Below the pieces are notes generated by a model that worked only from the letters and a program-made list of their open reading frames with translations, was not told the origin of the DNA and made no database searches. Shown here one piece after another: positions 2,201 to 20,383 of a DNA stretch of 32,130 nt. Source of the DNA: Salinivirgaceae bacterium (GTDB lineage Bacteria; Bacteroidota; Bacteroidia; Bacteroidales; SZUA-534); contig JAUXEM010000017.1 of the NCBI GenBank assembly GCA_030620515.1, positions 1 to 32,130 on the forward strand, read 5' to 3'. Each line of letters starts with the position of its first letter. Position 1 is the first letter of the stretch. A program made the position numbers and the translations under genes.

Positions 2201-2863
2201 ATGAATGTATTTGTATCGTGGAGCGGTGGTAAAGATTGCATGTTGGCTCTTAACCGCATAATAAATGAAAAAAAACATAATGTAATTGCACTTGTAAATA
2301 TGTGTAATGCAGATGGCAAGCACTCAGGTTCGCATGGTCTAACTAAAAATATTATAGAACAACAGGCAAAAGAACTTGGTATTCCAATAATTCAGCAAGC
2401 TGTTAACGAAAAGGGCTACGAATATAATTTTAAACAAGTTATTTCGCAGCTAATAAAACATGGTGTACAAGGTGGTATTTTTGGCGATATATATCTTGAA
2501 GCGCATCACGAATGGATAACTCGTGTATGCTCTGAATTAAATATTACACCAATTTTTCCGCTTTGGCTAAATAATACTAAAGAGCTGCTGAATGAGTTTA
2601 TTGATTACGGTTTTGAAACAGTAACAGTTTCGGTAAATAGCACTCATCTTAGTAAGGAGTGGTTAGGGAAAATAATAAATAAACAGTTTCTTGAAGATAT
2701 TACCCTTTTAAATGGCATTGATGCCTGTGCCGAAAATGGCGAGTATCATAGCTTTGTTTTTAATGGCCCAATTTTTAATAAACCCATACAATTTACAATA
2801 GGTGAGCCTAGGTTCGAGAAAAACCACTGGCTTTTACCATTAACAATTGTTAATAATGCATAA
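2201..2863 (+). CDS. Dph6-like PP-loop ATPase (diphthine-ammonia ligase family)
   Basis: A 220-residue cytoplasmic ATP pyrophosphatase of the adenine-nucleotide alpha-hydrolase superfamily. The PP-loop SGGKD is at residues 8-12, and the Dph6 family signature GIDACAENGEYHSFVF is near 170-185; GDIYLEAHHEWI lies in between. In archaea and eukaryotes Dph6 amidates diphthine on elongation factor 2, a modification absent from bacteria, so the bacterial homologue must do something else. It is the first gene behind a cobalamin riboswitch and overlaps the next gene, a BtuF-like protein, by 8 bases, so a role in corrinoid handling, perhaps forming an amide on a side chain, is a reasonable inference but unproven. 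The ATG start is the only good one near the PP-loop. Family assignment is strong; the substrate is unknown. Confidence 0.88.
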   Translation: MNVFVSWSGGKDCMLALNRIINEKKHNVIALVNMCNADGKHSGSHGLTKNIIEQQAKELGIPIIQQAVNEKGYEYNFKQVISQLIKHGVQGGIFGDIYLEAHHEWITRVCSELNITPIFPLWLNNTKELLNEFIDYGFETVTVSVNSTHLSKEWLGKIINKQFLEDITLLNGIDACAENGEYHSFVFNGPIFNKPIQFTIGEPRFEKNHWLLPLTIVNNA

Positions 2864-3617
2864 ACAAATAGTAGCCTTAGCACCATCAATATCGGAAACC
2901 ATCTGCGCATTGGGTGCAGCTGAACTTTTGGTTGGTGTAACAGATTATTGCAACCAGCCTAAACATTGCCAAATATTACCAAAAATAGGTGGATTTACCA
3001 CACCCGATATTGATAAAATACTGGCGCTTGATCCTGATTTAATACTAGCCACTACTTTGCATATGGAAGATAAATTGGCAGTTTTTAAAGAGCATAAAAT
3101 AAAAGTTATTCGCATTGAGGCAAAGCAATTACTAGACAGTCCTGAAACAATAATTCAAATTGGCAAAGCAATTAATATGGAAGAAAAAGCTCAAAAATTA
3201 GCTCAAAAAATACAATTAAGAATTGATGCCATTCTTGAGAAAGCAAAAACAATAAACAAAAAAGTAAAAGTTTGTTATTTGTGCACCTCTACCCCATTTT
3301 GCTCGCACAAACCCAAGTGTCAAACCAATAAACTAATTACTTTGTTGGGCGGAAAATTAATAGATTATCCAGAAAAAAATTTGGCTGATGCTATTGCAAA
3401 TGCAAATCCAGAGGTAATTATTATTCCTTACAAAACCGATTCCAGTGATTATATAATACAAGCCAAATTTATAGAACAGAACAAACAAATACACCAAACC
3501 AAAGCTTTTACAAGCAATGCTGTTCTCAATATTAATGGCGAATTACTTTCACGACCCGGACCAAGAGCTGCTTTGGGCCTAAATATTCTATATAATTTAA
3601 TTCATTCAAAAAAATGA
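2856..3617 (+). CDS. Cytosolic BtuF-like corrinoid-binding protein, Cys-rich
   Basis: A 253-residue member of the BtuF/FepB-type substrate-binding fold: IVALAPSISETICALGA at the start, LLVGVTDYCNQP, IGGFTTPDIDKILALDPDLIL, then a long helix and a second lobe ending in LLSRPGPRAALGLNILY. I choose the ATG at 2856, not the TTG three codons upstream, because family homology begins at MHKQIVALAPS. This leaves no signal peptide, so the protein should stay in the cytoplasm, unlike classical BtuF. Seven cysteines occur before residue 156 (17, 32, 38, 140, 143, 149, 155), four of them in CYLCTSTPFCSHKPKC, a possible metal site. It overlaps the upstream gene by 8 bases and the downstream one by 4. No permease or ATPase partner is in the window. 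Confidence 0.85.
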   Translation: MHKQIVALAPSISETICALGAAELLVGVTDYCNQPKHCQILPKIGGFTTPDIDKILALDPDLILATTLHMEDKLAVFKEHKIKVIRIEAKQLLDSPETIIQIGKAINMEEKAQKLAQKIQLRIDAILEKAKTINKKVKVCYLCTSTPFCSHKPKCQTNKLITLLGGKLIDYPEKNLADAIANANPEVIIIPYKTDSSDYIIQAKFIEQNKQIHQTKAFTSNAVLNINGELLSRPGPRAALGLNILYNLIHSKK

Positions 3618-4426
3618 AAAAACTATTTTCAACATCAATATTGCTTCTATTAGTTGCGAGTATAACTTTTGCACAAAGTAACACACGAGTAGTTTCACTG
3701 TCGCCGGCGGCAACATTTAACCTAATGGAACTAGGTTGCGAAAAAAATATTGTTGGCTGTACAAGCTTTTGCGACTTAGCCGATAACGAAGATTTGGTAG
3801 TTGGCTCAGCAATTAGCATGAACACCGAAAAGCTACTAAGCTTAAAGCCCAATGTGGTTATTTACACAACAATGTTTAAACCCAACCAAATTAAACGAAT
3901 TGAACAATTGGGCATTAAAACCCAGCTTTTTGCATCGCCAAAAAACTGGAACGAAACATGCGAGCAATTTATACGCTTGGGAGCATTGGTAGGCAAAAAA
4001 CAAGAAGCTAGAGCTTACACCGATTCATGCAATAGCATTATGGATAGTATTATTCAGACTATACCCAAAGGCAATAAACCAAAAATATTTATAGAAATTG
4101 GTGCAAAACCCTTATTTACAGCAATACCCAATACCTTTATGCAAGATTATATTGACATTATTGGTGGCATTAATATTGCTGCCGACCAAACTATTGGCAG
4201 TATTAGTCGCGAAAAAGTAATTATGAAGAACCCCGACATTATAATTATTGTAACAATGGGGATTGTTAGTGCCGAAGAAAAACAAATTTGGGAAAGCTAT
4301 ACGGATTTAAGTGCTACAAAAAATAATAAAATTCTTGTGGTTGATGCGTCTCTATCGTGCCGTCCAACTCCACATAATTTTTTAAATACAATTATAAAAT
4401 TGAACGAGTTAATATACAACAAATAA
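3614..4426 (+). CDS. btuF: Periplasmic BtuF-like cobalamin-binding protein
   Basis: A 270-residue substrate-binding protein of ABC importers. The N-terminus MKKLFSTSILLLLVASITFA is a signal peptide, probably cut after Ala20 before Gln21; there is no lipobox cysteine, so the mature form should be soluble in the periplasm. It then shows RVVSLSPAATFNLMELGCE, IVGCTSFCDL and LLSLKPNVVIYT, followed by a second lobe with FIEIGAKPLFTA and CRPTPHNFLN, matching the BtuF/FepB fold. It overlaps the cytosolic paralog by four bases (ATGA), so the two are translationally coupled and under the same cobalamin riboswitch. Corrinoid as ligand rests on the riboswitch and neighbours; heme or iron-siderophore binding is the usual alternative for this fold. 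Confidence 0.85.
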   Translation: MKKLFSTSILLLLVASITFAQSNTRVVSLSPAATFNLMELGCEKNIVGCTSFCDLADNEDLVVGSAISMNTEKLLSLKPNVVIYTTMFKPNQIKRIEQLGIKTQLFASPKNWNETCEQFIRLGALVGKKQEARAYTDSCNSIMDSIIQTIPKGNKPKIFIEIGAKPLFTAIPNTFMQDYIDIIGGINIAADQTIGSISREKVIMKNPDIIIIVTMGIVSAEEKQIWESYTDLSATKNNKILVVDASLSCRPTPHNFLNTIIKLNELIYNK

Positions 4427-5430: not shown

Positions 5431-7572
5431 TTATTTAACAGTACTCTGTCCACAATCGCTACAATAATTTACATCAGTTTCTAACTGCATTCCACATTTT
5501 TGGCACTTAGCAACAGTCATAACGGTTACTTTAGGTATTGAAAAGTACCTGAGTGGTATTTCATCAATAAATTGCGATTCGTTATTACGTAATGTTATTA
5601 GGTTTATTTCGTCGCGCGCACGGGTTAGGGCTACATAAAACAAACGACGCTCTTCCTCTAACATTAACTGGAATTTTTCTTTGCGTATAATCTGGTAAAT
5701 TGCATCATTATACCAAATGTCGGGAAAACCACCATAACCCTGCAATAAACCAATAATAAAAACCACCTTAGCCTCCAAACCTTTAGCTGCATGAATAGTT
5801 TTTGCCGATACTAATAAATTCTCTTTTTGAAGCGCACGTTTATAGGGTTCATACATTTTTGTTCGCCTGTAAAGCACTAAAATATCGTTATTATTTAAAC
5901 CTTGTTCATAAAGCTTTTTTACACGATTAATTAAATACTCAACATCGTCGATACCCGCCTCATTTGCCGAATAAATATTTAGTTTGCTAAGTTTTTTATT
6001 AGATGCCTGTAGCTGCTTGTCTACTATAAATTTATTTTTACGAATAAGCTCGTTACTAGCCTCAACAATGGTTTGGTTGCTTCGGTAATTTACGTTCAGC
6101 TCTATTATTTTAGCCGAGGCAAAATATTTCTTGAAATTAACAATATACCTTACATCTGAACCACGAAAACCATACACACCCTGCCAATCGTCACCCACAC
6201 AAAACAAATTAGTATTATGCGAAATAATTTGCTGAATAAGCTCAATTTGCAAGCTATTAACATCCTGAAACTCATCAACCAAAATATGTGTATATCTATT
6301 ATTAACAAACTCCCTAACCTCAGCATGGTTCTTTAACAGCTCGACAGCTTGAATTGAAAGGTCGTTAAAATCGAGATACGATTTGTTAGTAAGGTAATTA
6401 TGAAAAGCTTTAATAAGAATTTGTGCAAGTTGGTAAAAATCTCGAACTCGTTGGTGTGGAGAATTTGCGCCTCGTTTAAAAACCGTTGACGAATGCACTT
6501 TTTCAACTTTAACTTTATCGAGGACCTGTAATACATCGCGGGCAAAATCTTTAACATGTACATGATAGCCTGAAAATTCTTCCTCGTAATTTAAAGCTGC
6601 ATTTGCTTGGTATGTTTTACTAAGCTGGCCCTTTATAATTCTCTCTAAATGTTTTGAGAATTGGTTTGAGTCTTTTGTCATTGTTTCAAAAGTACGAACC
6701 AAGCGTTTAGATGCTTTTTTAAATTGCTGTTCTTTATTTTGCATCGGACTACTTTTATCGCTAATATGCTCAAGATATAAATTACCCTCGGGAATATAAA
6801 AATCGGGTTTAAAATTAAAGTCGGCAAAATTAACAAGAGGCTCATACATGTATCTTATACTATGCCTGTATAACCAATCGGCTATAAACTGCTCCGATTT
6901 TGAGCGAACTTTTTCGCCACTCAATGTTGTAAATGGCTTGGCATAATTTTTTGAATTACATGGTTTACTTGTCTCTACTTTATCAACATAAAAATCAATA
7001 ATATATCGTTTTAAAGCAAGTAAAAAACTTGGTTTTTCGCAAGCCTCAATAAGAACCTTTTGCATAACCGACATTATGTTTTCGGGACACTGGTTCTCAT
7101 AATTACCTATTTTAGAATACGAGCTATGGGTAATTATTTTGAACCGATTGTCGAATTGATGCACTCCTTTATCGCGTAATAGCTTATAGCAAAAACTATG
7201 AAAAGTACATATTGTAATTTTACTTAACCACGGGTAACTATTCAAATACTGCTTTCGACACTCTGACTTTTCGTAACTACTTAATTCAGGTTGATTTATT
7301 ATTTTTTTAAACTCACCACTCTTATCAGCATCTTCGAGCAACCTATCAATCATTTCGTTGGCTGCATCTTTAGTAAATGTAATGGCAAGTATATTTCGCG
7401 GTTTTATATTTTTATTTAAAAGCAAATAATTTATTCGCCCAATTAAAGTATGCGTCTTACCTGAGCCGGCGCCTGCCAGCACCAATAAGCGATTATGCTC
7501 ATTGGTAACAGCATTCAGCTGTGCTTTATTCAAAGCAATTACCCTTTTACTTTTTGTATTTTCTGTTTTCAT
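5431..7572 (-). CDS. UvrD/Rep-family helicase with nuclease-like insert and zinc ribbon
   Basis: A 713-residue superfamily 1A DNA helicase. Motif I is GAGSGKT at 34-40, followed by ILAITFTKDAANEM (Ia), CTFHSFCYKLLR, ILVDEFQDVN (II), FCVGDDWQGVYGFRG (III), ELNVNYRSNQ (IV), KTIHAAKGLEAKVVFI (V) and RRLFYVALTRARDEI (VI). An insert around 215-275 contains SKSEQFIADWLYRHSI, YEPLV and KPDFYIPEGNLYLEH, resembling the PD-(D/E)XK/Vsr-like domain present in some UvrD-like helicases; the canonical final Lys is replaced by His here. The last 24 residues form a zinc ribbon with Cys690, 693, 704 and 707. It probably acts in DNA repair or recombination. It is monocistronic and divergent from btuB, unrelated to the flanking B12 genes by sequence. 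Confidence 0.92.
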   Translation of the reverse strand: MKTENTKSKRVIALNKAQLNAVTNEHNRLLVLAGAGSGKTHTLIGRINYLLLNKNIKPRNILAITFTKDAANEMIDRLLEDADKSGEFKKIINQPELSSYEKSECRKQYLNSYPWLSKITICTFHSFCYKLLRDKGVHQFDNRFKIITHSSYSKIGNYENQCPENIMSVMQKVLIEACEKPSFLLALKRYIIDFYVDKVETSKPCNSKNYAKPFTTLSGEKVRSKSEQFIADWLYRHSIRYMYEPLVNFADFNFKPDFYIPEGNLYLEHISDKSSPMQNKEQQFKKASKRLVRTFETMTKDSNQFSKHLERIIKGQLSKTYQANAALNYEEEFSGYHVHVKDFARDVLQVLDKVKVEKVHSSTVFKRGANSPHQRVRDFYQLAQILIKAFHNYLTNKSYLDFNDLSIQAVELLKNHAEVREFVNNRYTHILVDEFQDVNSLQIELIQQIISHNTNLFCVGDDWQGVYGFRGSDVRYIVNFKKYFASAKIIELNVNYRSNQTIVEASNELIRKNKFIVDKQLQASNKKLSKLNIYSANEAGIDDVEYLINRVKKLYEQGLNNNDILVLYRRTKMYEPYKRALQKENLLVSAKTIHAAKGLEAKVVFIIGLLQGYGGFPDIWYNDAIYQIIRKEKFQLMLEEERRLFYVALTRARDEINLITLRNNESQFIDEIPLRYFSIPKVTVMTVAKCQKCGMQLETDVNYCSDCGQSTVK

Positions 7573-7857: not shown

Positions 7858-7887
7858 TTTTAATTAAAAAAAAAACGGTTACATTTG
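7858..7887 (+). promoter_or_regulatory. Promoter of the btuB riboswitch operon
   Basis: TACATTTG at 7880-7887 fits the Bacteroidota -7 consensus and sits a few bases upstream of the riboswitch P1. Its surrounding 12 bases TTACATTTGCAC are identical to those of the first riboswitch promoter (1729-1740). The -33 region is a poor match (TTTT at 7858-7861, 18 bases away). Confidence 0.6.
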
Positions 7888-7892
7888 CACTC

Positions 7893-8102
7893 GAATTTTG
7901 GTTCTCAAACTACTTTTTTGTAGTTTTTGATAATAGGGAATCCAGTGATCTAGCTTTAGGCTAGAAAATCTGGAGCTGTACCCGCAGCTGTAAGTCCTCT
8001 AGCCTTAGGCTAGATAACTTTTGAACCACAGCCACTATTTAGCCTCAGGCTAGGTGGGAAGGCATCAAAAGTTGGGACAAGCCAGAAGACCTGCCTCAAT
8101 TC
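7893..8102 (+). ncRNA. Cobalamin riboswitch 2
   Basis: P1 pairs GAATT (7893-7897) with AATTC (8098-8102). P2 is CAAACTAC/GTAGTTT (7907-7926). GGGAA (7936-7940) precedes P3 TCCAG/CTGGA (7941-7973). The L5 hairpin GCTGTACCCGCAGC has CCCG at 7981-7984. A 9-bp long-range pairing joins AACTTTTGA (8016-8024) with TCAAAAGTT (8065-8073), and the B12 box GCCAGAAGACCTGCC is at 8081-8095. It is 52 bases upstream of btuB and should repress btuB, btuG and probably the downstream cob genes. Compared with riboswitch 1 it carries three extra, nearly identical palindromic hairpins, listed separately. Confidence 0.96.
7950..8053 (+). repeat. Three near-identical palindromes inside riboswitch 2
   Basis: CTAGCTTTAGGCTAG (7950-7964), CTAGCCTTAGGCTAG (7999-8013) and TTAGCCTCAGGCTAG (8039-8053) each fold into a 6-bp stem with a three-base loop. 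They lie at three different peripheral positions: inside P3, in the junction before the long-range pairing, and at the tip of the CAC/GTG stem before GGGAAGG. Riboswitch 1 has none of them. They leave the conserved core intact. Confidence 0.85.
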
Positions 8103-8122
8103 ATAACAAAAAAATTAATAAT

Positions 8123-8154: not shown

Positions 8155-10131
8155 ATGAAAAACTCAACACCTTTTTTAAGTACTAATTATAAACTGGTAG
8201 CTGCTATCTTTTTTTTAGCCGTTTTTACGAATATTGCTAATGCACAAGATTACCAAACCGACGATACTGTTCATGTTCAAGAGGTTGTAATATCTGGCGA
8301 AAGCATAAGCCGCTTTCAATCGGGTGCAAAAATTGAGAAAATACCTGCCAAACAATTTGAATTGGCACAAGATGGTAGCCTAGAACAACTACTAAGCCGT
8401 ACTACTCCTATTTCGTTAAAAGCAAACGCTGGTGCACTTTCAACCATACGTATTCGTGGCACAGCGCCCGACCATACCAGCATTAATTTTGGCGGTATAA
8501 ATATAAACTCGTTAACACTTGGGCACTCCAACGTAAGCAATGTACCTATGTATTTGTTCGACGAAGTTGCAATTCAATACGGTAGTTCAAGCTCGGTAAA
8601 TGGCTCAGGAAACATTGGTGGCGCTATACACTTAGGCTTAAAAAACTATTGGGTAAAAGGCTTTAAAGCCGAAGTAAGAACTGCTCATGGTTCGTTTGGA
8701 GAGCAATTATATGGAACTAAAATATTTTTAGGAAATGGTAAGTTTGAGTCAGTATCGAGAGCGTACTATTATTACAAAAACAATAATTTTACGTATATTA
8801 ATCCTAATGTTCGAGATTTCGAAAATCAAATATTTGAAGTTATAGACACTCAGCATAATGCTAACATTGAAAACATGGGCATTATGCAAGAGTTAAACTA
8901 CAAATTTGCAGAAAAAGAAGTTTTATTATTTAAAGTGTGGCTTGAAAACGATTGGCATTTTATACAACAAAAAATGCAAACAAATATAGCCAAACCTAAT
9001 TATCAAGAAACATATCAAAACAAGCACATACGAATATGGGCCGATTACAAGAATAGAAAAAATGCCTTTAAATACCAATTTGGGACAGGTTACGTAAACG
9101 ATAATTCAATACATAAAGGCAATGCACGTGATGCCATAAAAACCGAACGTTTTATTGGAAATGCTTTTATTGAACATGACTTTATAAATAACGCTAGTTA
9201 TAAGATTGGAACAAAAGCAGCACGTATTTACCCCAAAGTATATGCGTATCCTGTAGGTTTAGATTACGAAGATCGAATTGACCTTTATGCCTCATATAAT
9301 CATACTTTTTTTAACAAACTAAAGGCAACGGCAAATATTCGCAAAGGTTTTGTAACTAACTTTACTATACCTTTTACCCCTTCGCTTGGTGTAAACTACA
9401 TTGCGCTTTCCAAGGAAAAATATATTTTAAATATTAGCGGCAATATTGCAAAAAGCTACCGTGTACCAACCTTTAACGACAGGTTTTGGATACCCGGAGG
9501 TAATCCAGATTTAGAACCCGAACACGGCATGAGCTACGAAGCCGGAGCTAAACTAAGCTACTGCGACAATAATGTTTTTGGGAATTTAAAAGTCAACCTG
9601 TTTTACATGGATATTAACGAATGGATTCTTTGGCTACCAGGAGATACAACAAACTCGATGGGTTGGTATGCCGAAAACATACAAAATGTTGTAAGCAAAG
9701 GATTTGAACTAATGGTTGATGTAAATTACACTCTTTATATTGTTAAAATGCATTCAGGAATAAACTACACATTAACATCTACTCAACGTAAAGCATCTAA
9801 AAAAAGCTCTAATGCAATAAATCGTCAACTAGAGTATGTGCCTTTACATAGTGGTAACTTTTTTACAACCGTTACTCATAAAAAAATAAGCATATCAATA
9901 GATGCCAACTATATTCACGAGCAATATACAAACGAAGAGGAGAAAAATATTATTGACCCATATGTACTTTTGAATTTTGCCTTAAGCTACAATCTAAAAA
10001 TTAACAATAATAATAAAATAAGAATTAACGGAATGGTAAACAACATACTAAATACCAATTATATATCTGATTGGGAATATGCCATGCCACGAATAAATTA
10101 CAGAATAAGCTTAACATACAATTTCAAATAA
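8155..10131 (+). CDS. btuB: TonB-dependent outer-membrane cobalamin receptor, BtuB-like
   Basis: Imports corrinoids across the outer membrane with energy from TonB. A long N-terminus with a hydrophobic core ends in FTNIANAQ, a typical Bacteroidota signal peptide. The TonB-box-like stretch VHVQEVVISGE follows, then a plug domain (about 50-165) with IRIRGTAPDHTSINFGGI and the GSGNIGGAIHL motif. The rest is a beta-barrel with the usual SYRVPTFNDRFWIPGGNPDLEPE segment and a final strand YRISLTYNFK. The 658 residues are normal for the BtuB group. Corrinoid specificity is supported by the riboswitch directly upstream and by the lipoprotein partner 35 bases downstream. The ATG at 8155 gives a good signal peptide. 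Confidence 0.93.
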   Translation: MKNSTPFLSTNYKLVAAIFFLAVFTNIANAQDYQTDDTVHVQEVVISGESISRFQSGAKIEKIPAKQFELAQDGSLEQLLSRTTPISLKANAGALSTIRIRGTAPDHTSINFGGININSLTLGHSNVSNVPMYLFDEVAIQYGSSSSVNGSGNIGGAIHLGLKNYWVKGFKAEVRTAHGSFGEQLYGTKIFLGNGKFESVSRAYYYYKNNNFTYINPNVRDFENQIFEVIDTQHNANIENMGIMQELNYKFAEKEVLLFKVWLENDWHFIQQKMQTNIAKPNYQETYQNKHIRIWADYKNRKNAFKYQFGTGYVNDNSIHKGNARDAIKTERFIGNAFIEHDFINNASYKIGTKAARIYPKVYAYPVGLDYEDRIDLYASYNHTFFNKLKATANIRKGFVTNFTIPFTPSLGVNYIALSKEKYILNISGNIAKSYRVPTFNDRFWIPGGNPDLEPEHGMSYEAGAKLSYCDNNVFGNLKVNLFYMDINEWILWLPGDTTNSMGWYAENIQNVVSKGFELMVDVNYTLYIVKMHSGINYTLTSTQRKASKKSSNAINRQLEYVPLHSGNFFTTVTHKKISISIDANYIHEQYTNEEEKNIIDPYVLLNFALSYNLKINNNNKIRINGMVNNILNTNYISDWEYAMPRINYRISLTYNFK

Positions 10132-10166
10132 CTTTTTCTAAATATTTACAATCAAAAATAAAACAG

Positions 10167-11252
10167 ATGAAAAACAAATTTACTCTACTATTACTTATGG
10201 CATTTGCAGCCTTTACATTTACATCATGTAACGATAAAAATGACAATAATGACAATGCCGGAAAAGGTGGGAAATACATTATTAATTATGGTAGTTATAG
10301 TGGTGACAAAAGTACAGCATCCATTTTTGACACTAAAAACGACACTGTTACAAACAACTACTATAAAGCAGTAAACAGCGTTGCTATGGTGTCAAACTCA
10401 GCATACACTTACAATTTTAACAATAAAATATATTTTATGGGCAACAATACCGACCAAGTATTTTTTGTTGACGAAGATTCATTTGAGCAAACGCATAATG
10501 GTATTGCAGGTAATGATATTACAAAACCTCGTTACTGTATTGGCAAGGGCGATTATTTATATGTATCGTGCTGGGGTGGTGATGTTTGGAAAGATATTAG
10601 CCTTTCGTATATTGCTAAAATTAATATTAAAACAAATGAAGTTGAAGGTAAAATTACATTGCATGGCGGTCCCGAGGGATTAGCTATTGCAAATAATAAA
10701 CTTTATGCTGCTTTAAACTATAAAGACAGTGTTGCTGTTATAGATTTAAACACCGAGGTTATTTCCTATATTGCTACACCTGCTGTTAATACGTATTTTG
10801 TTAAAGATAAAGATGACAATCTGTATGTTTCTTTAATAAGCTCATATAGCAAACCATCTACAGAAACAGGTTTGGGTTATATAAATACCACCACTGATAA
10901 ACTTGATGCCGTTTATAAATTAGATGGTATAAGCTCATCATATGTAAACATTATGTCGGCAAATAACGATTTCTCTAAAATTTATGTAATGACATCAGCA
11001 TACGATGCAAATTGGAAGATTTCAGGTGCTGTTGCAACGTTTAATGTTGCATCAAAATCTTTCGATACCGATATGTTTGTCAAGGGAGTATCGGCTATGA
11101 ATGGTATTGGTGTTAACGATGACAATGTACTTGTATTTATATCGGAAGGTGTTACTGGAAATGGTTTGGTAAAAAAATACAAAAACGATGGGACTTTTGT
11201 TAAAGAATACGAAACAGGTATTGCTCCATATATGTTATTAACTGTTGACTAA
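10167..11252 (+). CDS. btuG: BtuG-like surface lipoprotein, beta-propeller corrinoid binder
   Basis: A 361-residue lipoprotein. The signal sequence MKNKFTLLLLMAFAAFTFTS leads to lipidated Cys21, followed by NDKNDNNDN, an acidic run like the surface-export signals of Bacteroidota. The mature part has repeated strand motifs (YIINYGSYSG, KIYFMGNNTDQVFFVD, LYVSCWGGDVW, IKTNEVEGKI, LYAALNYKDSVAVIDL, LYVSLISSY), typical of the YncE/DUF5074 beta-propellers. In gut Bacteroides, BtuG is such a surface propeller that binds cobalamin very tightly and hands it to BtuB; here the gene sits 35 bases after btuB. Assignment is by fold pattern plus synteny. The longer reading frame from 10071 is rejected since it would overlap btuB and bury the signal peptide. 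Confidence 0.8.
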   Translation: MKNKFTLLLLMAFAAFTFTSCNDKNDNNDNAGKGGKYIINYGSYSGDKSTASIFDTKNDTVTNNYYKAVNSVAMVSNSAYTYNFNNKIYFMGNNTDQVFFVDEDSFEQTHNGIAGNDITKPRYCIGKGDYLYVSCWGGDVWKDISLSYIAKINIKTNEVEGKITLHGGPEGLAIANNKLYAALNYKDSVAVIDLNTEVISYIATPAVNTYFVKDKDDNLYVSLISSYSKPSTETGLGYINTTTDKLDAVYKLDGISSSYVNIMSANNDFSKIYVMTSAYDANWKISGAVATFNVASKSFDTDMFVKGVSAMNGIGVNDDNVLVFISEGVTGNGLVKKYKNDGTFVKEYETGIAPYMLLTVD

Positions 11253-11810: not shown

Positions 11811-12320
11811 ATGGCAAAAATAACTCTTATTACAGGCGGACAGCGTAGCGGTAAAAGTAGCTTTGCTCAAAACAAAGCTCTTGAACTTTCTGAAAATCCA
11901 GTTTATTTGGCAACATCGCGAATTTGGGATACCGATTTTGAGCAGAGAATTAAACGTCATAAATCTGACCGTGGTGAAGAATGGGAAAATATTGAAGAAG
12001 AAAAGCAACTTGAACATCTGAAGCTAGAAAACAAAACCATTGTTTTAGATTGCATTACTCTTTGGTTGACTAATATTTTTCACGACAACAAATACAACTT
12101 GGAAAAATCGCTAAGCGAAGCAAAGATAATATGGACTGAACTTATAAAAAAAGACTGTACCCTTATTGTGGTTAGCAACGAACTAGGAATGGGTATGCAT
12201 GCCGAAACTGAGGTGGGTCGTAAATTTACTGACCTACAAGGATGGATGAATCAACATATTGCAAACCTTGCAGATGAAGTAATTCTGATGGTTTCAGGTA
12301 TTCCAATGACAGTTAAATAA
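11811..12320 (+). CDS. cobU: Adenosylcobinamide kinase / adenosylcobinamide-phosphate guanylyltransferase
   Basis: Phosphorylates adenosylcobinamide and then transfers GMP from GTP, giving adenosylcobinamide-GDP for CobS. The P-loop GGQRSGKS is at residues 9-16, YLATSRIWD follows, and RIKRHKSDRGEEW holds the histidine region that is guanylylated in CobU. LDCITLWLTNIF, VSNELGMGMHAE, GRKFTDLQGWMNQHIA and VSGIPMTVK complete the family pattern. At 169 residues it is at the short end of normal and complete. The ATG start directly precedes the first beta-strand. It begins the nucleotide-loop assembly block. Confidence 0.97.
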   Translation: MAKITLITGGQRSGKSSFAQNKALELSENPVYLATSRIWDTDFEQRIKRHKSDRGEEWENIEEEKQLEHLKLENKTIVLDCITLWLTNIFHDNKYNLEKSLSEAKIIWTELIKKDCTLIVVSNELGMGMHAETEVGRKFTDLQGWMNQHIANLADEVILMVSGIPMTVK

Positions 12321-12439: not shown

Positions 12440-13438
12440 ATGAAAGAACAACTTACACTCAAAATAAACAATAAAACCAAGCCTCCAGGGTCACTTGGAC
12501 AGTTAGAAGAAATAGCTATACAAATTGGTGCTGTTCAGAATACTTTAACACCTGCGCTAAAAAAGCCAACCATGCTAGTATTTGCTGCCGACCATGGCCT
12601 TACTGAAGAAGGCATTAGTCCGTTTCCAAAAGAAGTTACTTTTCAGATGGTAATGAACTTTCTTAATGGTGGTGCCGCCATAAATGTATTTTGCAAACAA
12701 AACGACATTGCTCTTAAAGTAGTAGATGCTGGTGTTGATTTTGAATTCCCAGAATCACCCAATTTAATAAATGCCAAAATTACCAATGGAACTAAAAATA
12801 GCCTTATAGAACCAGCTATGTCCATTGAAGAATGTAACGCCGCAATGAGTAAAGGAGCCAACATTGTAAAAACGGAAGCAAAAAACGATTGTAATATTAT
12901 TGGCTTTGGCGAAATGGGTATTGGCAACACATCGGCTGCTGCATTACTTATGCACAAATTTACTGGTTTAAGCATGCAACAGTGTGTTGGTGCGGGTACC
13001 GGATTTGATGATGCCGGAATAAACAAAAAGAAAAAAATTTTAATTAAAGTAGCTAACAAACACAAAGTAACTGAACCAATAGAAACACTTGCCGCTGTTG
13101 GTGGCTTAGAAATTGCCATGATGTGTGGTGCTATGCTCGAAGCTAAAAAGCAGAACATGGTAATTATGGTTGATGGTTTTATAGCTACATCAGCATTTTT
13201 AACTGCTTTTAAAATAGATAATTCAATTAAAAACAATGCAATATTCTGTCATACATCTGATGAAAATGGTCATAAATATATGCTCGATTACCTAGAGGCA
13301 AAAACTATTTTATCTATGGGATTAAGACTTGGCGAAGGTACAGGTGCTGCAATCGCTTATCCTATAATTAAATCGGCAGTTGCCTTTTTAAACGAAATGG
13401 CTAGCTTTGAAGATGCAGGGATTTCTAATAAAGAATAG
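12440..13438 (+). CDS. cobT: Nicotinate-nucleotide:dimethylbenzimidazole phosphoribosyltransferase, copy 1
   Basis: Makes the alpha-ribotide of the lower ligand base from nicotinate mononucleotide. The 332 residues follow the family closely: NNKTKPPGSLGQLEEIA at the start, FAADHGLTEEGISPFPKEVT, the GGAAINVF motif, VVDAGVDFEF, GFGEMGIGNTSAAA, GAGTGFDDAGI, GGLEIAMMCG, VDGFIATSA and the LRLGEGTGAAIAYP segment carrying the presumed catalytic glutamate. It is the more canonical of the two CobT proteins in this window. It is 119 bases after cobU; the gap has a CTTTGCGACTTTGCG repeat (12401-12415). The start ATG gives the normal N-terminus. Confidence 0.97.
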   Translation: MKEQLTLKINNKTKPPGSLGQLEEIAIQIGAVQNTLTPALKKPTMLVFAADHGLTEEGISPFPKEVTFQMVMNFLNGGAAINVFCKQNDIALKVVDAGVDFEFPESPNLINAKITNGTKNSLIEPAMSIEECNAAMSKGANIVKTEAKNDCNIIGFGEMGIGNTSAAALLMHKFTGLSMQQCVGAGTGFDDAGINKKKKILIKVANKHKVTEPIETLAAVGGLEIAMMCGAMLEAKKQNMVIMVDGFIATSAFLTAFKIDNSIKNNAIFCHTSDENGHKYMLDYLEAKTILSMGLRLGEGTGAAIAYPIIKSAVAFLNEMASFEDAGISNKE

Positions 13439-13624
13439 AAGTTAAAATACAGAACCTAGAATTAAGAATGAGTTTTTCAAGAATTAAAACGATGCACATT
13501 AATACCTTTGCAATGGAAGAAAAATAATTCGTGAATTAGTGGCTTGTATTTAATGCGAGAATGATTCAATGATAGAATAAAAATCTTTGCGCCTTTGTGC
13601 CTTTGCGAGCTTAAAAATATAACA
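13439..13624 (+). repeat. Intergenic repeats before cobS
   Basis: The gap holds AATAATTCGTGAATTAGTGG (13524-13543) and CTTTGCGCCTTTGTGC followed by CTTTGCG (13582-13604), three tandem copies of an 8-base unit. An ORF in frame with cobS begins in the last unit, which is a shadow of the repeat and not a true N-terminus. Confidence 0.6.
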
Positions 13625-14398
13625 ATGAACCAAATACGAATATTCCTAACAGCCATAATGTTTTATACACGCATTCCGATACCAAAAATAAAGGACTACA
13701 ACAATGGAATGCTAAGTAAATCTACGCGCTACTTTCCTCTTATTGGTTTAATTGTGGGAGTATTAACCGCTTTAGTATATTTTGGATTTTCGAAAATTCT
13801 ACCATCCGAAATAGCTATTTTACTATCAATGGCATTCTCTGTTTATCTGACAGGAGCTTTTCATGAAGATGGATTTGCCGATTTTTGCGATGGTTTTGGT
13901 GGTGGTTACACTAAAGAAAAAGTACTAACCATTATGAAAGATAGCCGAATAGGAACCTATGGCTCTGTTGGATTAATATTCATGTTGGCTACTAAATTTC
14001 TTGCTTTAAATGCATTAAATACTTCTTTACTAATTGGTATAATCATAGCCGGACATACATTTAGCCGCATAATACCTGTGGCACTCATTTACATTACACA
14101 GTATGTTCGCGAAGACGAAACCAGCAAATCAAAGCCCATTGGACATAGAGGAAGCTACTTGGCTTTATTCTTTGCAATCATTACTGGACTTGTTCCTGTT
14201 ATTTGGATAGGTTGGTTTGCTGCTCTAATATTTTCAATTGCAATTCTTTTTGTAACACTAATATTCAAAAGATATATAGTTAAAAAAATTGGCGGCTATA
14301 CAGGTGATGTTCTTGGTGCATTACAGCAAATAACTGAAGTGGTATTCTATTTATGCATACTTGTACTACAAAATAACGAAGCATGGAACTTGTTTTAA
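13625..14398 (+). CDS. cobS: Cobalamin-5'-phosphate synthase (adenosylcobinamide-GDP ribazoletransferase)
   Basis: Joins adenosylcobinamide-GDP to the alpha-ribotide in the inner membrane. The protein is a multi-span membrane protein: FLTAIMFYTRIPIPK at the N-terminus, hydrophobic segments around 40-80, 120-145 and 175-215, and the acidic active-site signature GAFHEDGFADFCDGFGGG followed by IMKDSRIGTYG, typical of CobS. The 257 residues from ATG 13625 are the normal size; ten more in-frame codons upstream come from repeat DNA. It overlaps cobC by 16 bases, implying translational coupling of the last two steps of cobamide assembly. Confidence 0.97.
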   Translation: MNQIRIFLTAIMFYTRIPIPKIKDYNNGMLSKSTRYFPLIGLIVGVLTALVYFGFSKILPSEIAILLSMAFSVYLTGAFHEDGFADFCDGFGGGYTKEKVLTIMKDSRIGTYGSVGLIFMLATKFLALNALNTSLLIGIIIAGHTFSRIIPVALIYITQYVREDETSKSKPIGHRGSYLALFFAIITGLVPVIWIGWFAALIFSIAILFVTLIFKRYIVKKIGGYTGDVLGALQQITEVVFYLCILVLQNNEAWNLF

Positions 14399-14928
14399 TC
14401 CGACATACGAAAGTAGCTGTTGAAAAAGGCATATGTTATGGTTTTACCGATGTGGATGTTGCATCTACCTTTAAAGAAGAGGTATTAGATACAGCAAACC
14501 AAATAAAGAGTCTTTCATTCGATGAAATTTGGTCGAGTCCACTTAGCAGGAGTTTAAAACTTGCAAAAGAATTATTTCCGCACCAAACTATAAATACTGA
14601 TGAACGACTAAAAGAACTTAACTTCGGCGATTGGGAAGGGCTTACATGGGAACAATTATTTGAATTATCTGAAGGCAAAAGCTGGATGGAAAACTATCTT
14701 AAAAATAGATGTCCCAATGGAGAATCGTTTCAAGACCAAATAAACAGAATTATCGATTTCTACAAAGAAAAAAAGAAAAGCTTTAACTATAAACGAATAG
14801 CAATTATATCCCATGGAGGAAGCATCCGAGCATTTCTATGTCATTTGCAAAATATGAATCCAGAAAAAGCTTTCGACATTGATATTGACTATGGAAGCGT
14901 AACAACACTAAATATAACAAATGATTAA
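14383..14928 (+). CDS. cobC: Alpha-ribazole phosphatase (histidine phosphatase family)
   Basis: Removes the 5'-phosphate from adenosylcobalamin phosphate or alpha-ribazole phosphate. The 181-residue protein starts MELVLIRHTK with the RHT triad (Arg7, His8, Thr9), followed by ICYGFTDVDV, IWSSPLSRSLKLAKEL, ERLKELNFGDWEGLTWEQL and IISHGGSIRAFLC with the second catalytic histidine. The pattern ICYG.TDV and FGDWEG is that of CobC and not of general phosphoglycerate mutases. It overlaps cobS by 16 bases and the second cobT by 8, within the nucleotide-loop block. Confidence 0.94.
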   Translation: MELVLIRHTKVAVEKGICYGFTDVDVASTFKEEVLDTANQIKSLSFDEIWSSPLSRSLKLAKELFPHQTINTDERLKELNFGDWEGLTWEQLFELSEGKSWMENYLKNRCPNGESFQDQINRIIDFYKEKKKSFNYKRIAIISHGGSIRAFLCHLQNMNPEKAFDIDIDYGSVTTLNITND

Positions 14929-15976
14929 AACAGACATACCAAATATTGCCCAACATCTTAAAGATGAAATACAGCTAAAGCTTGACAATAAGGCCAAACC
15001 AGTTGGTTCATTGGGTAAACTTGAAGAAATTGCACTCAGAATTGGCATGATTCAACATTCCCTTACTCCAAAATTCACTAAACCGGTAATACTAACTGTT
15101 GCAGCCGATCATCACATTACAAAAGAAGGTGTTAGCCCCTGCCCTGTTGAGATAACCTGGCAACAGGTAAATAATTTTTTAGCCGGAGGAGGGGGAATTG
15201 GTCTATTCTCAAAAGTTTATGGTATGGATTTATGGGTAGCCGATGCCGGTGTTGATTATGACTTTCCAATAAACGAAAAACTAATTAATGTTAAAATTAA
15301 AAAAGGATCCGCTAACTTTCTGTATGAACCAGCCATGACACTTACTGAATGTAAGCAAGCTATAAATAATGGTAAAGAAATAGTAAATAAATTTCATGAG
15401 CAAGGAACAAATATCATAGGTTTTGGTGAAATGGGCATTGGAAACACAACACCCGCCTCGGCGCTAATGTCAATTTTCTGCAACTTAACTATTGAGGATT
15501 GTGTTGGACCAGGTTCCGGACTTTCATATGACGGGGTTAGTCATAAAGCCAATGTAATTAAACAAGCAATAGAAAAACACGGAGTTTCAAGCAATCCAGT
15601 TGAAAACCTAGCTCGTTATGGCGGGTTAGAAATAGCCACTATTGCAGGCGGAATGTTGCAAGCTGCCGAAAATAAAATGATAATTATTACCGATGGTTTC
15701 ATTACCACTTCTGCACTATTAGTTGCTCAAGCTATTAATCCAAAAGTGCTCAATTATGCCTTTTTCTCTCATCAATCGAAAGAGCAAGGACATATAAAAA
15801 TGATTGAATTTATGAATGGAGATGCTATTTTAGATTTAGATTTGCGCCTTGGAGAAGGCACTGGTGCTACATTGGCATATTCAATTTTAAAAGGTGCAGT
15901 TGCCGTTTTAACTGACATGACATCCTTTGAAGAAAGTAAAGTGATTAATACAAGTCATATTAGAATTTCAAATTAA
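14921..15976 (+). CDS. cobT: CobT paralog, copy 2 (lower-ligand phosphoribosyltransferase)
   Basis: A second CobT homologue of 351 residues. It keeps DNKAKPVGSLGKLEEIALR, AADHHITKEGVSPCPVEIT, GFGEMGIGNTTPASAL, GGLEIATIAGG, TDGFITTSALL and LRLGEGTGATLAYS, so the main catalytic glutamates are present. It departs from copy 1 in regions that shape the active site: GGGGIGLF replaces GGAAINVF, AADHH replaces AADHG, and GPGSGLSYDGVSH replaces GAGTGFDDAGINK. It overlaps cobC by 8 bases, so it is expressed with cobS-cobC. It may activate another lower ligand base or form a heteromer with copy 1, as ArsA/ArsB do in Sporomusa and Veillonella. Family membership is certain; specificity is unknown. Confidence 0.95.
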   Translation: MIKTDIPNIAQHLKDEIQLKLDNKAKPVGSLGKLEEIALRIGMIQHSLTPKFTKPVILTVAADHHITKEGVSPCPVEITWQQVNNFLAGGGGIGLFSKVYGMDLWVADAGVDYDFPINEKLINVKIKKGSANFLYEPAMTLTECKQAINNGKEIVNKFHEQGTNIIGFGEMGIGNTTPASALMSIFCNLTIEDCVGPGSGLSYDGVSHKANVIKQAIEKHGVSSNPVENLARYGGLEIATIAGGMLQAAENKMIIITDGFITTSALLVAQAINPKVLNYAFFSHQSKEQGHIKMIEFMNGDAILDLDLRLGEGTGATLAYSILKGAVAVLTDMTSFEESKVINTSHIRISN

Positions 15977-16124: not shown

Positions 16125-17612
16125 ATGAACAATATAAAAAAACTAAACTCTTTAATGTTTGTAGGTACCGGTTCCGATGTGGGTAAAAGTGTAATAAATG
16201 CAGCCTATTGCCGAATTCTAAAACAAGATGGCTACTCCCCTGCTCCATTCAAGGCTCAAAACATGTCGCTTAATAGCTTTGCTACTCCCAATGGTTTAGA
16301 AATTGGCCGTGCACAAGCAGTACAAGCCGAAGCATGTCAAATTCCTTGTAGTGTTGAAATGAATCCTATACTACTAAAACCAACCGATTACAAAACAGCC
16401 CAAGTGGTACTACATGGCAAACCAATTGGCAATCAAAGTGCAAAAGAATATTTTTTAGGAACCGACCGCGATAATCTTTTTGATGAGGTAGTAAAATCAT
16501 ATAAAACTCTTGCTGCAAATTTCAATCCCATAGTAATGGAAGGAGCTGGTAGTATATCGGAGTTGAATTTGCGCGATAAAGACATTGTAAATATGCGCAT
16601 GGCTATTGCCGCCAATGCTGCCACTTTTTTAATTGCCGACATTGATCGTGGTGGTGTTTTTGGTAGTATTTACGGTACCATTCAATTATTAAGCCCTGAA
16701 GAACGTAAGCATATTAAAGGCATTATTATTAATAAATTCCGTGGCGATATCGACTTATTTACAGAGGGTCGAAAAATGCTTGAAGAACTAACGGGCGTTC
16801 CCGTATTAGCTGTAATACCTTACTTTCGTGATATAAAAATTGAGCAAGAAGACTCTGTTGTTGTTGACAATTACCACGGAGTTAATGTAGCCAATAAATT
16901 AAACATAGCAGTCGTGTTACTTAGGCACATGTCTAACTTTACCGACTTTAATGCAATGGAGCATATTGATGGAGTTCACCTTTTTTACACAGCCGAGCCA
17001 ACCGAAGTTGAAAATGCCGATGTAGTTATTATACCAGGTTCAAAAAACACCATTTCCGATTTAGTTCAGTTGCGGAAAAATGGACTAGCAAAAGCTATTA
17101 TTTCAGCACACAAAAATGAGAAAGCAGTATATGGCATTTGTGGTGGCTACCAAATTATGGGTAAAACAATTAACGACCCCAATAGCATAGAAGGCGATGT
17201 AAGCACTATTCCTGGCTTAGGAATTTTACCAGTCAACACCGAAATACTGAAAAGTAAAACTACGGAACAATGTACTTTTAGTTTTCTTGACAGTTCAAAT
17301 AAGTGTGAAGGCTATGAAATCCATATGGGCAAAACTACTCTTGAAAACGCAAAGCCTTTGTGCAAAACAAAAAACGGAATTGAAGATGGTTGCTATATTA
17401 ATCCAAAAACTTGGGGAAGTTACATACATGGAATACTAGATAACACGGCAGTAATAAATTACATATTAGAGAATAATGGTATAAAAGAAAGGATTAAGCC
17501 ATTCAATTATTCTGAATTTAAAGAAGAACAATTCGATAAATTAGCAGACCATGTTCGTAAAAATACCGATATGCAACAATTTTATGAAATACTTAACAGT
17601 GAAATTAAATAA
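16125..17612 (+). CDS. cobQ: Cobyric acid synthase (glutamine-hydrolysing)
   Basis: Amidates side chains b, d, e and g of adenosylcobyrinic acid a,c-diamide to give adenosylcobyric acid. The N-terminal dethiobiotin-synthetase-like ATPase has the P-loop GTGSDVGKS at 14-22, KAQNMSLNSF near 43-52 and MEGAGSISELNLRDKDIVN. The C-terminal CobQ-type glutamine amidotransferase carries Cys339 in YGICGGYQIMG and His435 in WGSYIHGILDN. The 495 residues are full length. It follows the second cobT after 148 bases of mixed repeat sequence. cbiA, the paralog for the a,c-amidations, is not in the window. Confidence 0.97.
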   Translation: MNNIKKLNSLMFVGTGSDVGKSVINAAYCRILKQDGYSPAPFKAQNMSLNSFATPNGLEIGRAQAVQAEACQIPCSVEMNPILLKPTDYKTAQVVLHGKPIGNQSAKEYFLGTDRDNLFDEVVKSYKTLAANFNPIVMEGAGSISELNLRDKDIVNMRMAIAANAATFLIADIDRGGVFGSIYGTIQLLSPEERKHIKGIIINKFRGDIDLFTEGRKMLEELTGVPVLAVIPYFRDIKIEQEDSVVVDNYHGVNVANKLNIAVVLLRHMSNFTDFNAMEHIDGVHLFYTAEPTEVENADVVIIPGSKNTISDLVQLRKNGLAKAIISAHKNEKAVYGICGGYQIMGKTINDPNSIEGDVSTIPGLGILPVNTEILKSKTTEQCTFSFLDSSNKCEGYEIHMGKTTLENAKPLCKTKNGIEDGCYINPKTWGSYIHGILDNTAVINYILENNGIKERIKPFNYSEFKEEQFDKLADHVRKNTDMQQFYEILNSEIK

Positions 17613-17748: not shown

Positions 17749-18765
17749 ATGATAAACGGACACGGAAACGATTTACATAACTACCCAAATATTATTGCCG
17801 ATTTTAGCTCAAATGTTTGGTTCGAAGGCCCTAAACCCGAATTACTCAATTATTTGTGTAACCATATTAAAAGGATAGCAAATTATCCTGAGCCAAATGC
17901 TATTTCATTTACTCAAAAAGCAGCAAATTTCTACAAACTACCCAATAGTTTCTGCATAGCTACAAATGGCTCAGCCGAAGCTTTTTATCTAATTGCTCAA
18001 GCATTAAACAAAAATACAGCAACAATTATAGCTCCTGCTTTTGCCGAGTATGCAGATGCTTGCGAGCAGCACAATATTTCAGTTGAGTATATACTTAACT
18101 CAAACATTAACAGTAAACACCAATTTAATACTCAACTTGTTTGGTTTGCAAACCCAAATAATCCTGACGGTAAAGTTATTTCTACAACTACAATTGAGGC
18201 TTGGCTAAAAATGCATCCCAATACTACTTTTATTATAGATGAAGCTTATGCTGAGCTATGTACAAAATTTGAATCGTCTATTAGCTTAATTCAAAAATAT
18301 AAAAATCTGATTATTACAAAATCGTTCACGAAAGCCTTTGTCATACCAGGATTACGCTTGGGCATTATTTTAACATCCGATTCACATATTAAAAAATTAC
18401 ATAATTATCAAATACCATGGGCGGTAAATAGCTTAGCTATTGCAGCTGGTAATTATATTATAAATAACTATCAGTCTCTACTATTAGATAAAAAAATACT
18501 AACCAGATATTCTAAACAGTTACAGAAAAACCTAAATAGTATTCCAAACATTAATGTTTTAGAAGCTGACTGCAACTACTTTTTGGCAGAAACCAAACAC
18601 AAAACGGCAGCTGAATTAAAAGAATACTTAGCAAAAAATCACGGTTTACTTATTCGTGACGCATCAAATTTTAAAAGTTTAAGCTCAGGTCATTTTCGAA
18701 TTGCCATTCAGTCTGAACAAAATAATAACCTTTTAGTGCAAGCTCTAAAACAATGGATGCAATAA
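17749..18765 (+). CDS. cobD: L-threonine-O-3-phosphate decarboxylase
   Basis: A PLP-dependent fold-type I enzyme that makes (R)-1-aminopropan-2-ol phosphate for the nucleotide loop. The 338 residues resemble histidinol-phosphate aminotransferases: MINGHGNDLHNYPNIIADFS is the typical CobD start (GHGGN..., here GHGND). ATNGSAEAFY binds the cofactor phosphate, FANPNNPDGK and FIIDEAYAE are conserved, the PLP lysine is Lys195 in KSFTKAFVIPGLRLG, and the C-terminal FRIAIQ carries the carboxylate-binding arginine. It overlaps cbiB, whose product uses the aminopropanol phosphate, by 13 bases. There is no kinase extension on the protein, so its substrate must come from a separate threonine kinase. Confidence 0.92.
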   Translation: MINGHGNDLHNYPNIIADFSSNVWFEGPKPELLNYLCNHIKRIANYPEPNAISFTQKAANFYKLPNSFCIATNGSAEAFYLIAQALNKNTATIIAPAFAEYADACEQHNISVEYILNSNINSKHQFNTQLVWFANPNNPDGKVISTTTIEAWLKMHPNTTFIIDEAYAELCTKFESSISLIQKYKNLIITKSFTKAFVIPGLRLGIILTSDSHIKKLHNYQIPWAVNSLAIAAGNYIINNYQSLLLDKKILTRYSKQLQKNLNSIPNINVLEADCNYFLAETKHKTAAELKEYLAKNHGLLIRDASNFKSLSSGHFRIAIQSEQNNNLLVQALKQWMQ

Positions 18766-19703
18766 TAAATCAAACTCTAATAGCTTCGCTTATTATTGGG
18801 TTTATACTCGATAGTATTATTGGTGACCCACTGTGGCTACCACATCCCATAAGGCTATTTGGCAATATTATAAGTAAGGCAGAAAAAAAGCTCAACAAAA
18901 ATAAGCATCGCAAAATTAAGGGAGCAATAGTAGCTGTATCTTTAATTTCGTTAACTTGGTTAATACTATTCTTAATTTTCAAATATATTGAGGCTTATAA
19001 AATTCCATTAATTATAGCCACTAGCATTGGCGTATTTTATGGTATTGCTAATCATAGTTTAATTAAAGAGGCTTGGCGAGTTGAGAAAGCTATGCAAAAC
19101 GAAAGTATAGAGACAGCTCGTATTAAGCTTAGTTACATTGTTGGGCGCGAAACCAAACAATTAAATAAGCAACAGATTCGAACTGCAATTTTAGAAACAC
19201 TTGCCGAAAATTTAAGCGATGGTATAATTGCTCCGCTTTTATACTTTGCTATTGGAGGCGTTCCGCTAATGTTAGCATATAAAATGATAAACACTCTCGA
19301 CTCAATGATAGGATACAAAAACGAACGCTATAAACAATTTGGTTGGTTTGCAGCTAAAACCGACGATATTTTTAATTTTATTCCGGCTCGCATTACCGCC
19401 CTAATTATGGTTTTTATAACACTTAGCTATAGAGGCATATTATTTATTTTTAAATATGCAAATAATCATAGCAGCCCTAACGCAGGTTACCCTGAGGCTG
19501 CCCTTAGTGGTATACTTAACCTACAGTTTGGTGGCTCTAATTATTATCATGGTAAAATGGTACAAAAACCATTTATTGGCAATAATAATAGGTCTGTTAC
19601 ACATATTGATATTATTAAAGCCTGCTTAATTAATGCAGCCACATCTATTATTATGCTTAGTGCTATAATTATAATTTACCACTATGCAGCAGTCCTTGTC
19701 TGA
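18753..19703 (+). CDS. cbiB: Adenosylcobinamide-phosphate synthase
   Basis: Attaches aminopropanol phosphate to adenosylcobyric acid at the inner membrane. The 316-residue membrane protein shows the family signatures GFILDSIIGDPLWLPHPIRLFG, IVGRETKQLN, TAILETLAENLSDGIIAPLLY, NTLDSMIGYKNERYKQFGWFAAKTDD and SPNAGYPEAALSGIL. Hydrophobic segments lie near 10-25, 55-100, 160-180, 210-235 and at the C-terminus. It overlaps cobD by 13 bases (ATGGATGCAATAA junction). It is the last canonical cob gene; a P-loop NTPase follows 77 bases on. Confidence 0.96.
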   Translation: MDAIINQTLIASLIIGFILDSIIGDPLWLPHPIRLFGNIISKAEKKLNKNKHRKIKGAIVAVSLISLTWLILFLIFKYIEAYKIPLIIATSIGVFYGIANHSLIKEAWRVEKAMQNESIETARIKLSYIVGRETKQLNKQQIRTAILETLAENLSDGIIAPLLYFAIGGVPLMLAYKMINTLDSMIGYKNERYKQFGWFAAKTDDIFNFIPARITALIMVFITLSYRGILFIFKYANNHSSPNAGYPEAALSGILNLQFGGSNYYHGKMVQKPFIGNNNRSVTHIDIIKACLINAATSIIMLSAIIIIYHYAAVLV

Positions 19704-19780: not shown

Positions 19781-20383
19781 ATGAAAAATAAACGAATTAT
19801 AATTACAGGTGGTGGTGGCTCAGGCAAAACATCTATTATAAATACTCTGGGCAAAAAAGGCTTTTCTACTTATCCAGAGGTGTCTCGTCAAATAATTAAA
19901 AAGCAACAGCTAATAAATGGAGATTTAACCCCATGGCAAAATCTTTCTTGTTTTGCAGAAGAGTGCTTATGCAGAATGGAAAAACAACTGGATAATAACC
20001 TTAATGAATTTTCATTTTACGACAGAGGTATTCCCGATATAATTGCTTACCTAAAAGTTAATAAATTTGAAGTTAAGGATAAGTACTTTGCAAAAGCAAA
20101 CCAATACTACAATACCGTTTTTATTTGCCCGCCCTGGAAAGATATATTTATTAACGATGCCCAACGACCCGAGACTTTTGAATACTCAAAAAGTATTTAT
20201 TTAAGCATTAAAAAGATTTACTCTGATTTAGGTTTTAAGTTAATAGAATTACCAAAAATATCGGTCAAATTACGAGTAAAAATTATTGAAAATTATATAA
20301 AATTGCACTCAAATAATCTTATTTTTCAAAACAACAATCACTATACAGTAACAGAAAACTCTTTTCCATCGGTAGCCAAATAA
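19781..20383 (+). CDS. P-loop NTPase/kinase-like protein (AAA_28 type) at the end of the B12 cluster
   Basis: A 200-residue cytoplasmic P-loop protein. The Walker A motif GGGGSGKT is at 10-17, followed by KKGFSTYPEVSRQIIKKQ and later FSFYDRGIPDIIAYL, a DRG motif seen in NadR/AAA_28-like small-molecule kinases. PPWKDIFINDAQRPETFEYS may form the lid and substrate region. The family includes nicotinamide riboside kinase-like and uncharacterised proteins, so a kinase activity is plausible but the substrate is not readable. The gene lies 77 bases after cbiB on the same strand and near cobD, whose substrate L-threonine phosphate needs a kinase not otherwise seen here. Its 3' end overlaps rnz on the opposite strand by 43 bases. 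Confidence 0.82.
   Translation: MKNKRIIITGGGGSGKTSIINTLGKKGFSTYPEVSRQIIKKQQLINGDLTPWQNLSCFAEECLCRMEKQLDNNLNEFSFYDRGIPDIIAYLKVNKFEVKDKYFAKANQYYNTVFICPPWKDIFINDAQRPETFEYSKSIYLSIKKIYSDLGFKLIELPKISVKLRVKIIENYIKLHSNNLIFQNNNHYTVTENSFPSVAK

Follow-up and report, generated by a model that had tools for sequence, protein, structure and literature searches.

An AAA_28 P-loop protein as candidate L-threonine kinase for cobamide synthesis in Bacteroidota

The final gene of a cobalamin (B12) gene run in a Salinivirgaceae bacterium probably encodes a P-loop L-threonine kinase that feeds CobD and is not homologous to PduX; we put the probability of this reading at about 0.72. The gene, called X here, occupies positions 19781..20383 on the forward strand of the window, the 32,130-nucleotide stretch of contig that was analysed. 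Beyond its predicted P-loop kinase fold, X belongs to B12 clusters, co-occurs with CbiB, lies in a genome where PduX was not detected, and, in two relatives without it, has its operon place taken by PduX; its substrate, catalytic residues and chemistry we infer. Threonine kinase, one of two roles that the initial annotation held credible, is on this evidence the best candidate, and the other, alpha-ribazole kinase, has lost ground.

X is an intact open reading frame with an ATG start. Its 200-aa product matches AAA_28 (PF13521, 1.7e-32) over residues 5-164 and profile positions 1-163 of 164, at 113.4 bits for a gathering cut-off of 27, in agreement with its earlier description as a kinase-like P-loop NTPase. 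AAA_28 was the sole match in the Pfam search, which returned no GHMP kinase N-terminal domain (PF00288, present in PduX), and the NCBIfam search returned no equivalog. The CobU family models of Pfam and NCBIfam did not match X either.

All genes of the run lie on the forward strand. A cobalamin riboswitch (7882..8112; RF00174, 83.2 bits) heads it, followed by a TonB receptor gene, an unnamed ORF, cobU (adenosylcobinamide kinase/guanylyltransferase, 11811..12320; NF004469 above cut-off), a first cobT (12440..13438; TIGR03160 above cut-off), cobS (13595..14398; NF001277 above cut-off), cobC (alpha-ribazole phosphatase, 14383..14928; TIGR03162 above cut-off), a second cobT (14921..15976), cbiP/cobQ (cobyric acid synthase, 16125..17612; PF07685 and PF01656), a cobD encoding a threonine-phosphate decarboxylase-like protein (17749..18765; best NCBIfam TIGR01140, 249.5 bits, below the cut-off of 290.55) and cbiB (adenosylcobinamide-phosphate synthase, 18753..19703; PF03186 3.3e-100, TIGR00380 above cut-off). 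X closes the run 77 nt after cbiB, in the position after cobD-cbiB that had been noted for it, and riboswitch to X would form a single transcript.

Several other features of the window were recorded. The two cobT copies are distinct paralogues, both above the TIGR03160 cut-off, and possibly represent two lower-ligand base specificities; a tandem cobT pair is also found in Marinifilum (L215 4034-6153), where a 382-aa ORF (6157-7305) lies between cobU and cobT. The unnamed ORF between the TonB receptor gene and cobU (10071-11252, 393 aa, no Pfam match) is conserved at this position in L036-L038 and L053 and is a candidate cell-surface B12-binding protein. A second cobalamin riboswitch (1729-1932) stands upstream of a PF01902 (diphthamide-synthase-family) ORF, after which come two Peripla_BP_2 (BtuF-like) ORFs (2201-4426 region).

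What supplies CobD with L-threonine phosphate in this organism? A BLAST search of the whole genome (96.5% complete) with Salmonella PduX (L143) gave no match. The genome has only three GHMP kinases, which from their sequences we named by eye as galactokinase-like, HddA-like and IspE-like, and none resembles PduX above noise. CobD is a single-domain protein of 338 aa, and therefore no fusion. With no PduX match, three GHMP kinases of other types and a single-domain CobD, the 96.5% complete assembly shows no known L-threonine kinase, so that the absence of a PduX-like gene and of a CobD fusion, first read from the window, holds for the genome assembly.

For the threonine kinase step, one review lists PduX and BluE alone (PMC7242693), and a survey covering 11,000 bacterial species excluded pduX from its definition of cobamide producers because the gene is absent in most verified producers (PMC6461909). 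PduX, the L-threonine kinase of Salmonella, shares with X the proposed reaction (L-Thr + ATP -> L-Thr-O-3-P) and the slot in the cob operon, which it takes in Cytophagales without X; in sequence and domain the two are unrelated, PduX being a GHMP_kinases_N protein and X a P-loop AAA_28 protein. BluE of Rhodobacterales is credited as a kinase for this step to Tavares 2018, as cited in PMC7242693, and was tested in PMC6249242. It has the proposed reaction and a gene beside cbiB/cobD in common with X. The Alloyangia pacifica protein at the BluE position (L059 13874-14668), presumably BluE by that position, is a remote PduX/GHMP relative and not a P-loop protein, and BluE may accordingly not be a separate fold, a detail on which the initial annotation, which called it a different kinase, differs. 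A title in the reference list of PMC6461909 describes MmCobD (MM2060) as a bifunctional kinase/decarboxylase. This enzyme supplies L-Thr-P at the same step, with the kinase activity inside CobD, whereas the kinase here would be a separate gene.

The conserved positions of X fall into motifs of a small-molecule kinase. Walker A (GGGGSGKT, residues 10-17, 19808..19831) and the Walker-B-like FYDRG (residues 79-83, 20015..20029), both singled out in the initial annotation, are present, with G10, G13, G15 and K16 invariant in 56-59 relatives and F79, D81 and R82 invariant as well. Between them lie E33-V-S-R36 (19877..19888), in which E33 and R36 are invariant, and P51-W52 (19931..19936), likewise invariant and found in 76 of 76 cob-linked relatives. 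The lid (residues 119-135, WKDIFINDAQRPETFEY, 20135..20185) carries the invariant R129 followed by P at residue 130; D86, P117, W119, D126 and Y147 complete the invariant set. The AlphaFold2 model has a pLDDT of 86, with residues 179-200 disordered. Its best structural match is the ribosylnicotinamide-kinase domain of NadR (8x7f; Z 19.0, rmsd 2.5 over 176 residues, 13% identity), followed by deoxynucleoside and thymidylate kinases.

In what respects is X a NadR? The NadR kinase domain (1LW7, 6GYE, 8X7F) shares with it the fold (Z up to 19.0), Walker A, the E..R pair, the D at the Walker-B position and the D..R of the lid, and differs in overall sequence (~13% identity) and in the residue at R82. 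Comparison with NadR, proposed at the outset, thus finds agreement in the fold; for the sequence, phmmer with X alone found no match among PDB sequences, and a profile of the X family reached NadR only at E=0.0047, beside low-complexity noise (protein A) among the top matches. The profile alignment pairs E33/R36 with the NadR 'EE.R', D81 with the D of 'F.D', and D126/R129 with NadR residues. Since the fold is NadR-like and the conserved residues align, the model would give X the machinery of a small-molecule phosphotransferase. That X is an ordinary NadR-type ribosylnicotinamide kinase, set near cob genes by chance, is nevertheless very improbable in spite of the shared Pfam family and the best fold match. 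Its cob linkage is far above chance, and the other AAA_28 gene of the genome, beside a PnuC-like gene, is significantly NadR-like, compared with E ~0.005 for the profile of the X subfamily. X itself is a single domain among cob genes, with neither a fused NMN adenylyltransferase domain nor a PnuC neighbour. The other AAA_28 gene (L062 2898-4033) overlaps the PnuC-like ORF, and the two are likely a nicotinamide riboside kinase and its transporter.

The acceptor substrate is not readable from the sequence or fold of X, and the nearest folds, those of nucleoside and nucleotide kinases and not of amino-acid kinases, count against a threonine kinase. Under the preferred reading, ATP would bind at the Walker A loop and X would use its gamma phosphate to phosphorylate free L-threonine on the side-chain hydroxyl. 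The acceptor hydroxyl may be activated by E33, which the comparison with NadR and deoxynucleoside kinases makes a candidate for catalysis, or else by D81, while R82 and the lid residue R129 may stabilise the phosphate in transfer. CobD would then decarboxylate L-threonine-O-3-phosphate to (R)-1-aminopropan-2-ol phosphate, which CbiB would join to adenosylcobyric acid.

X alone, used as query against 149 genomes from the window's order, recovered its own gene and four relatives. Three of these sit in cob clusters, arranged cbiP-cobD-cbiB-X (L054), cbiP-cobD-cbiB-X-cobU (L049) and X-cobU-...-cobS-cobC (L053); the fourth, from a genome that lacks CbiB, is a generic protein with K at residue 130 (K-type). 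AAA_28 itself scores above cut-off in 82 of the 149 genomes and is thus common, unlike the X subfamily. Full-length relatives of X in other genomes are 36-57% identical to it, which together with the AAA_28 match puts X well beyond a chance reading frame. In Hymenobacter swuensis, H. volaticus and Spirosoma oryzicola, annotated plasmids have X in cobQ-cobD-cbiB clusters under the bare name 'AAA family ATPase'.

A scan of genome contigs with the single sequence found no relatives; with a seven-member alignment it gave 80 loci that were kept. Home-made profiles placed a cob gene within ~8 kb in 69 of them, and in one further locus (L083) a cobalamin riboswitch lies directly downstream, so that ~70 of 80 are B12-linked. 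The loci were picked by similarity and not by location, but the query alignment was itself cob-linked, and the linked fraction therefore describes the X subfamily only. X mostly follows cbiB directly, the reading frames overlapping or near-touching: among the 27 measured junctions of cbiB and X the frames overlap in 13, and in 23 they either overlap or lie <=20 nt from each other. The order cbiP-cobD-cbiB-X is found in Cytophagales, Chitinophagales and Sphingobacteriales, and two Verrucomicrobia (L085, L117) have cbiP-cobD-cbiB-X-cobU-cobT-cobS-cobC, operons in which threonine kinase is the sole known step after cobyric acid without a gene.

Elsewhere X stands away from cobD and cbiB, after cbiP in Marinifilaceae (cbiP-X) and after cbiA in Chlorobi (cbiA-X). 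These positions would suit a non-catalytic or other late-pathway P-loop ATPase/GTPase accessory for cobyric acid or cobinamide formation (a chaperone, a regulator or a partial stand-in for CobU). We consider such a role improbable, given that fold and conserved residues match small-molecule kinases, that a separate cobU is present, and that it leaves the replacement by PduX unexplained. A kinase is not, for its part, a fixed tenant of the slot between cbiB and cobU: that rule was rejected, as two relatives have a PduO-type adenosyltransferase there.

How sharply does the subfamily differ from generic AAA_28 proteins? Residue 130 is P or W in 76 of 76 cob-linked loci and, in 15 non-cob-linked loci, K/R in nine, P/W in five and a gap in one. 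The idea that this residue marks B12 linkage without fail was rejected, because one member adjoining cbiB has K (G475) and another, in a genome without CbiB, has F (G478); P/W at this residue is thus a tendency. The generic proteins with K/R at 130 belong to the same family and have nearly all the conserved residues of X, but no cob linkage, and in two genomes one occurs as a second copy, separate from the one next to cbiB. A wide occurrence of homologues away from B12 genes, which the initial annotation had named as refuting its proposal, is accordingly found for AAA_28 overall and not for the X subfamily. Widespread proteins with a K/R lid away from B12 genes were seen in L060, L061, L130, L134, L139, L141 and L142; some are on plasmids of Klebsiella, Enterobacter and Azospirillum and are annotated only as 'AAA family ATPase'. 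In an unrooted tree, non-linked K-types fall between the P-types and the W-types, and four loci from Chlorobiaceae, for which no cob neighbour was detected, share a clade with cob-linked loci. A single origin of the cob-linked members finds no support in this tree, which counts against the threonine kinase reading; as they are not one clade, they may have been recruited repeatedly, or the K-type may be the derived state.

CobS attaches the lower ligand and CbiB the linker. Our draw of Cytophagales comprised 167 genomes, with CobS in 63 and CbiB in 19, all of the latter also CobS-positive; X, called at E<=1e-30, was present in 16. It occurs in 15 of the 19 genomes with CbiB and in 1 of the 44 with CobS and no CbiB (Fisher p=4.7e-10, shared ancestry ignored; the genomes in these counts are phylogenetically non-independent). 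By coordinates, 14 of the 15 X genes in the CbiB genomes are near cbiB. CbiB was also present in 20 of 20 other genomes with relatives of X that were tested, including Marinifilaceae and Chlorobi where X is not adjacent to it; a phylum-wide draw for CbiB was dominated by one family and little informative. In the Cytophagales X tracks CbiB, not CobS alone, which fits linker supply at the CobD/CbiB step and argues against alpha-ribazole or lower-ligand salvage.

Could X nonetheless phosphorylate the 5'-OH of alpha-ribazole, in the manner of NadR, to feed CobS? The closest fold, NadR's ribosylnicotinamide-kinase domain and then deoxynucleoside kinases, and the placement of X among cobU, cobT, cobS and cobC in several clusters speak for such a kinase. 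An enzyme of the CblS type would be expected with CobS regardless of CbiB, and the counts of 1/44 and 15/19 run the other way; CobT and CobC are already present in the clusters, and the operon of relatives without X holds PduX and no ribazole enzyme. We regard the alpha-ribazole kinase as quite unlikely.

The operon just mentioned provides the replacement on which the L-threonine kinase reading also draws. Four Cytophagales with CbiB are without X, and in two of them (G486, G502) a PduX-cbiP-cobD operon close to cbiB encodes a PduX homologue, a GHMP-domain protein 27-29% identical to Salmonella PduX; none of the 15 Cytophagales with CbiB and X has PduX. G486 and G502 look closely related, and the replacement may be one event. 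The PduX-type GHMP kinase genes recorded at L208 9892-10749 and L209 9925-10782 have no pdu genes within the 16-kb stretch. A proteobacterial metagenome-assembled genome (G452) has both a PduX-like protein and X, on separate contigs (L144, L105), and is a counter-example to replacement unless it is a mixed bin; either a mixed bin or true redundancy would account for it.

Exceptions of another kind count against the threonine kinase. The remaining two Cytophagales with CbiB (G509, G564) match neither X nor PduX, and in a Bacteroidales-like draw from the window's order 16 of 20 genomes with CbiB are without X. No PduX was found in those 16 by BLAST, and a small PduX profile gave no match in 15 of the cbiB neighbourhoods. 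Such genomes must have another supply of threonine phosphate, perhaps an additional L-threonine kinase or a bifunctional CobD. Bacteroidota with CbiB and without X or detectable PduX were recorded at L036-L048, L050, L051, L210 and L211.

Co-occurrence with CobD and CbiB would be identical if X phosphorylated another hydroxy-amine of the linker, be it free aminopropanol or ethanolamine, or L-serine (for norcobamides), and the sequence does not reveal the substrate. We think such a kinase unlikely. An aminopropanol kinase would make CobD superfluous, yet cobD adjoins in most clusters. Serine synthesis normally passes through L-serine phosphate, which lessens the need for a kinase dedicated to serine. 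The PduX in the operon of relatives speaks for L-threonine here too. A broader proposal, which we hold as doubtful, is that AAA_28 proteins form a class of P-loop kinases of free hydroxy-amino acids and similar hydroxy compounds, in which the P/W-lid proteins would be an independently evolved L-threonine kinase of the cobamide linker and the K-lid proteins would act on a related non-B12 substrate.

L-threonine kinase is a known function (EC 2.7.1.177), and the AAA_28 family appears to be new for it; our literature search, with most subscription papers outside it, met no proposal of an AAA_28 protein for this step, and priority is uncertain. If the L-threonine kinase reading is true, X would be a third, unrelated kinase whose presence marks synthesis of the CobD/CbiB type across many Bacteroidota, Chlorobi and some Verrucomicrobia. 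It would give a function to a protein annotated just as 'AAA family ATPase', fill part of the pduX gap and allow better prediction of B12 producers.
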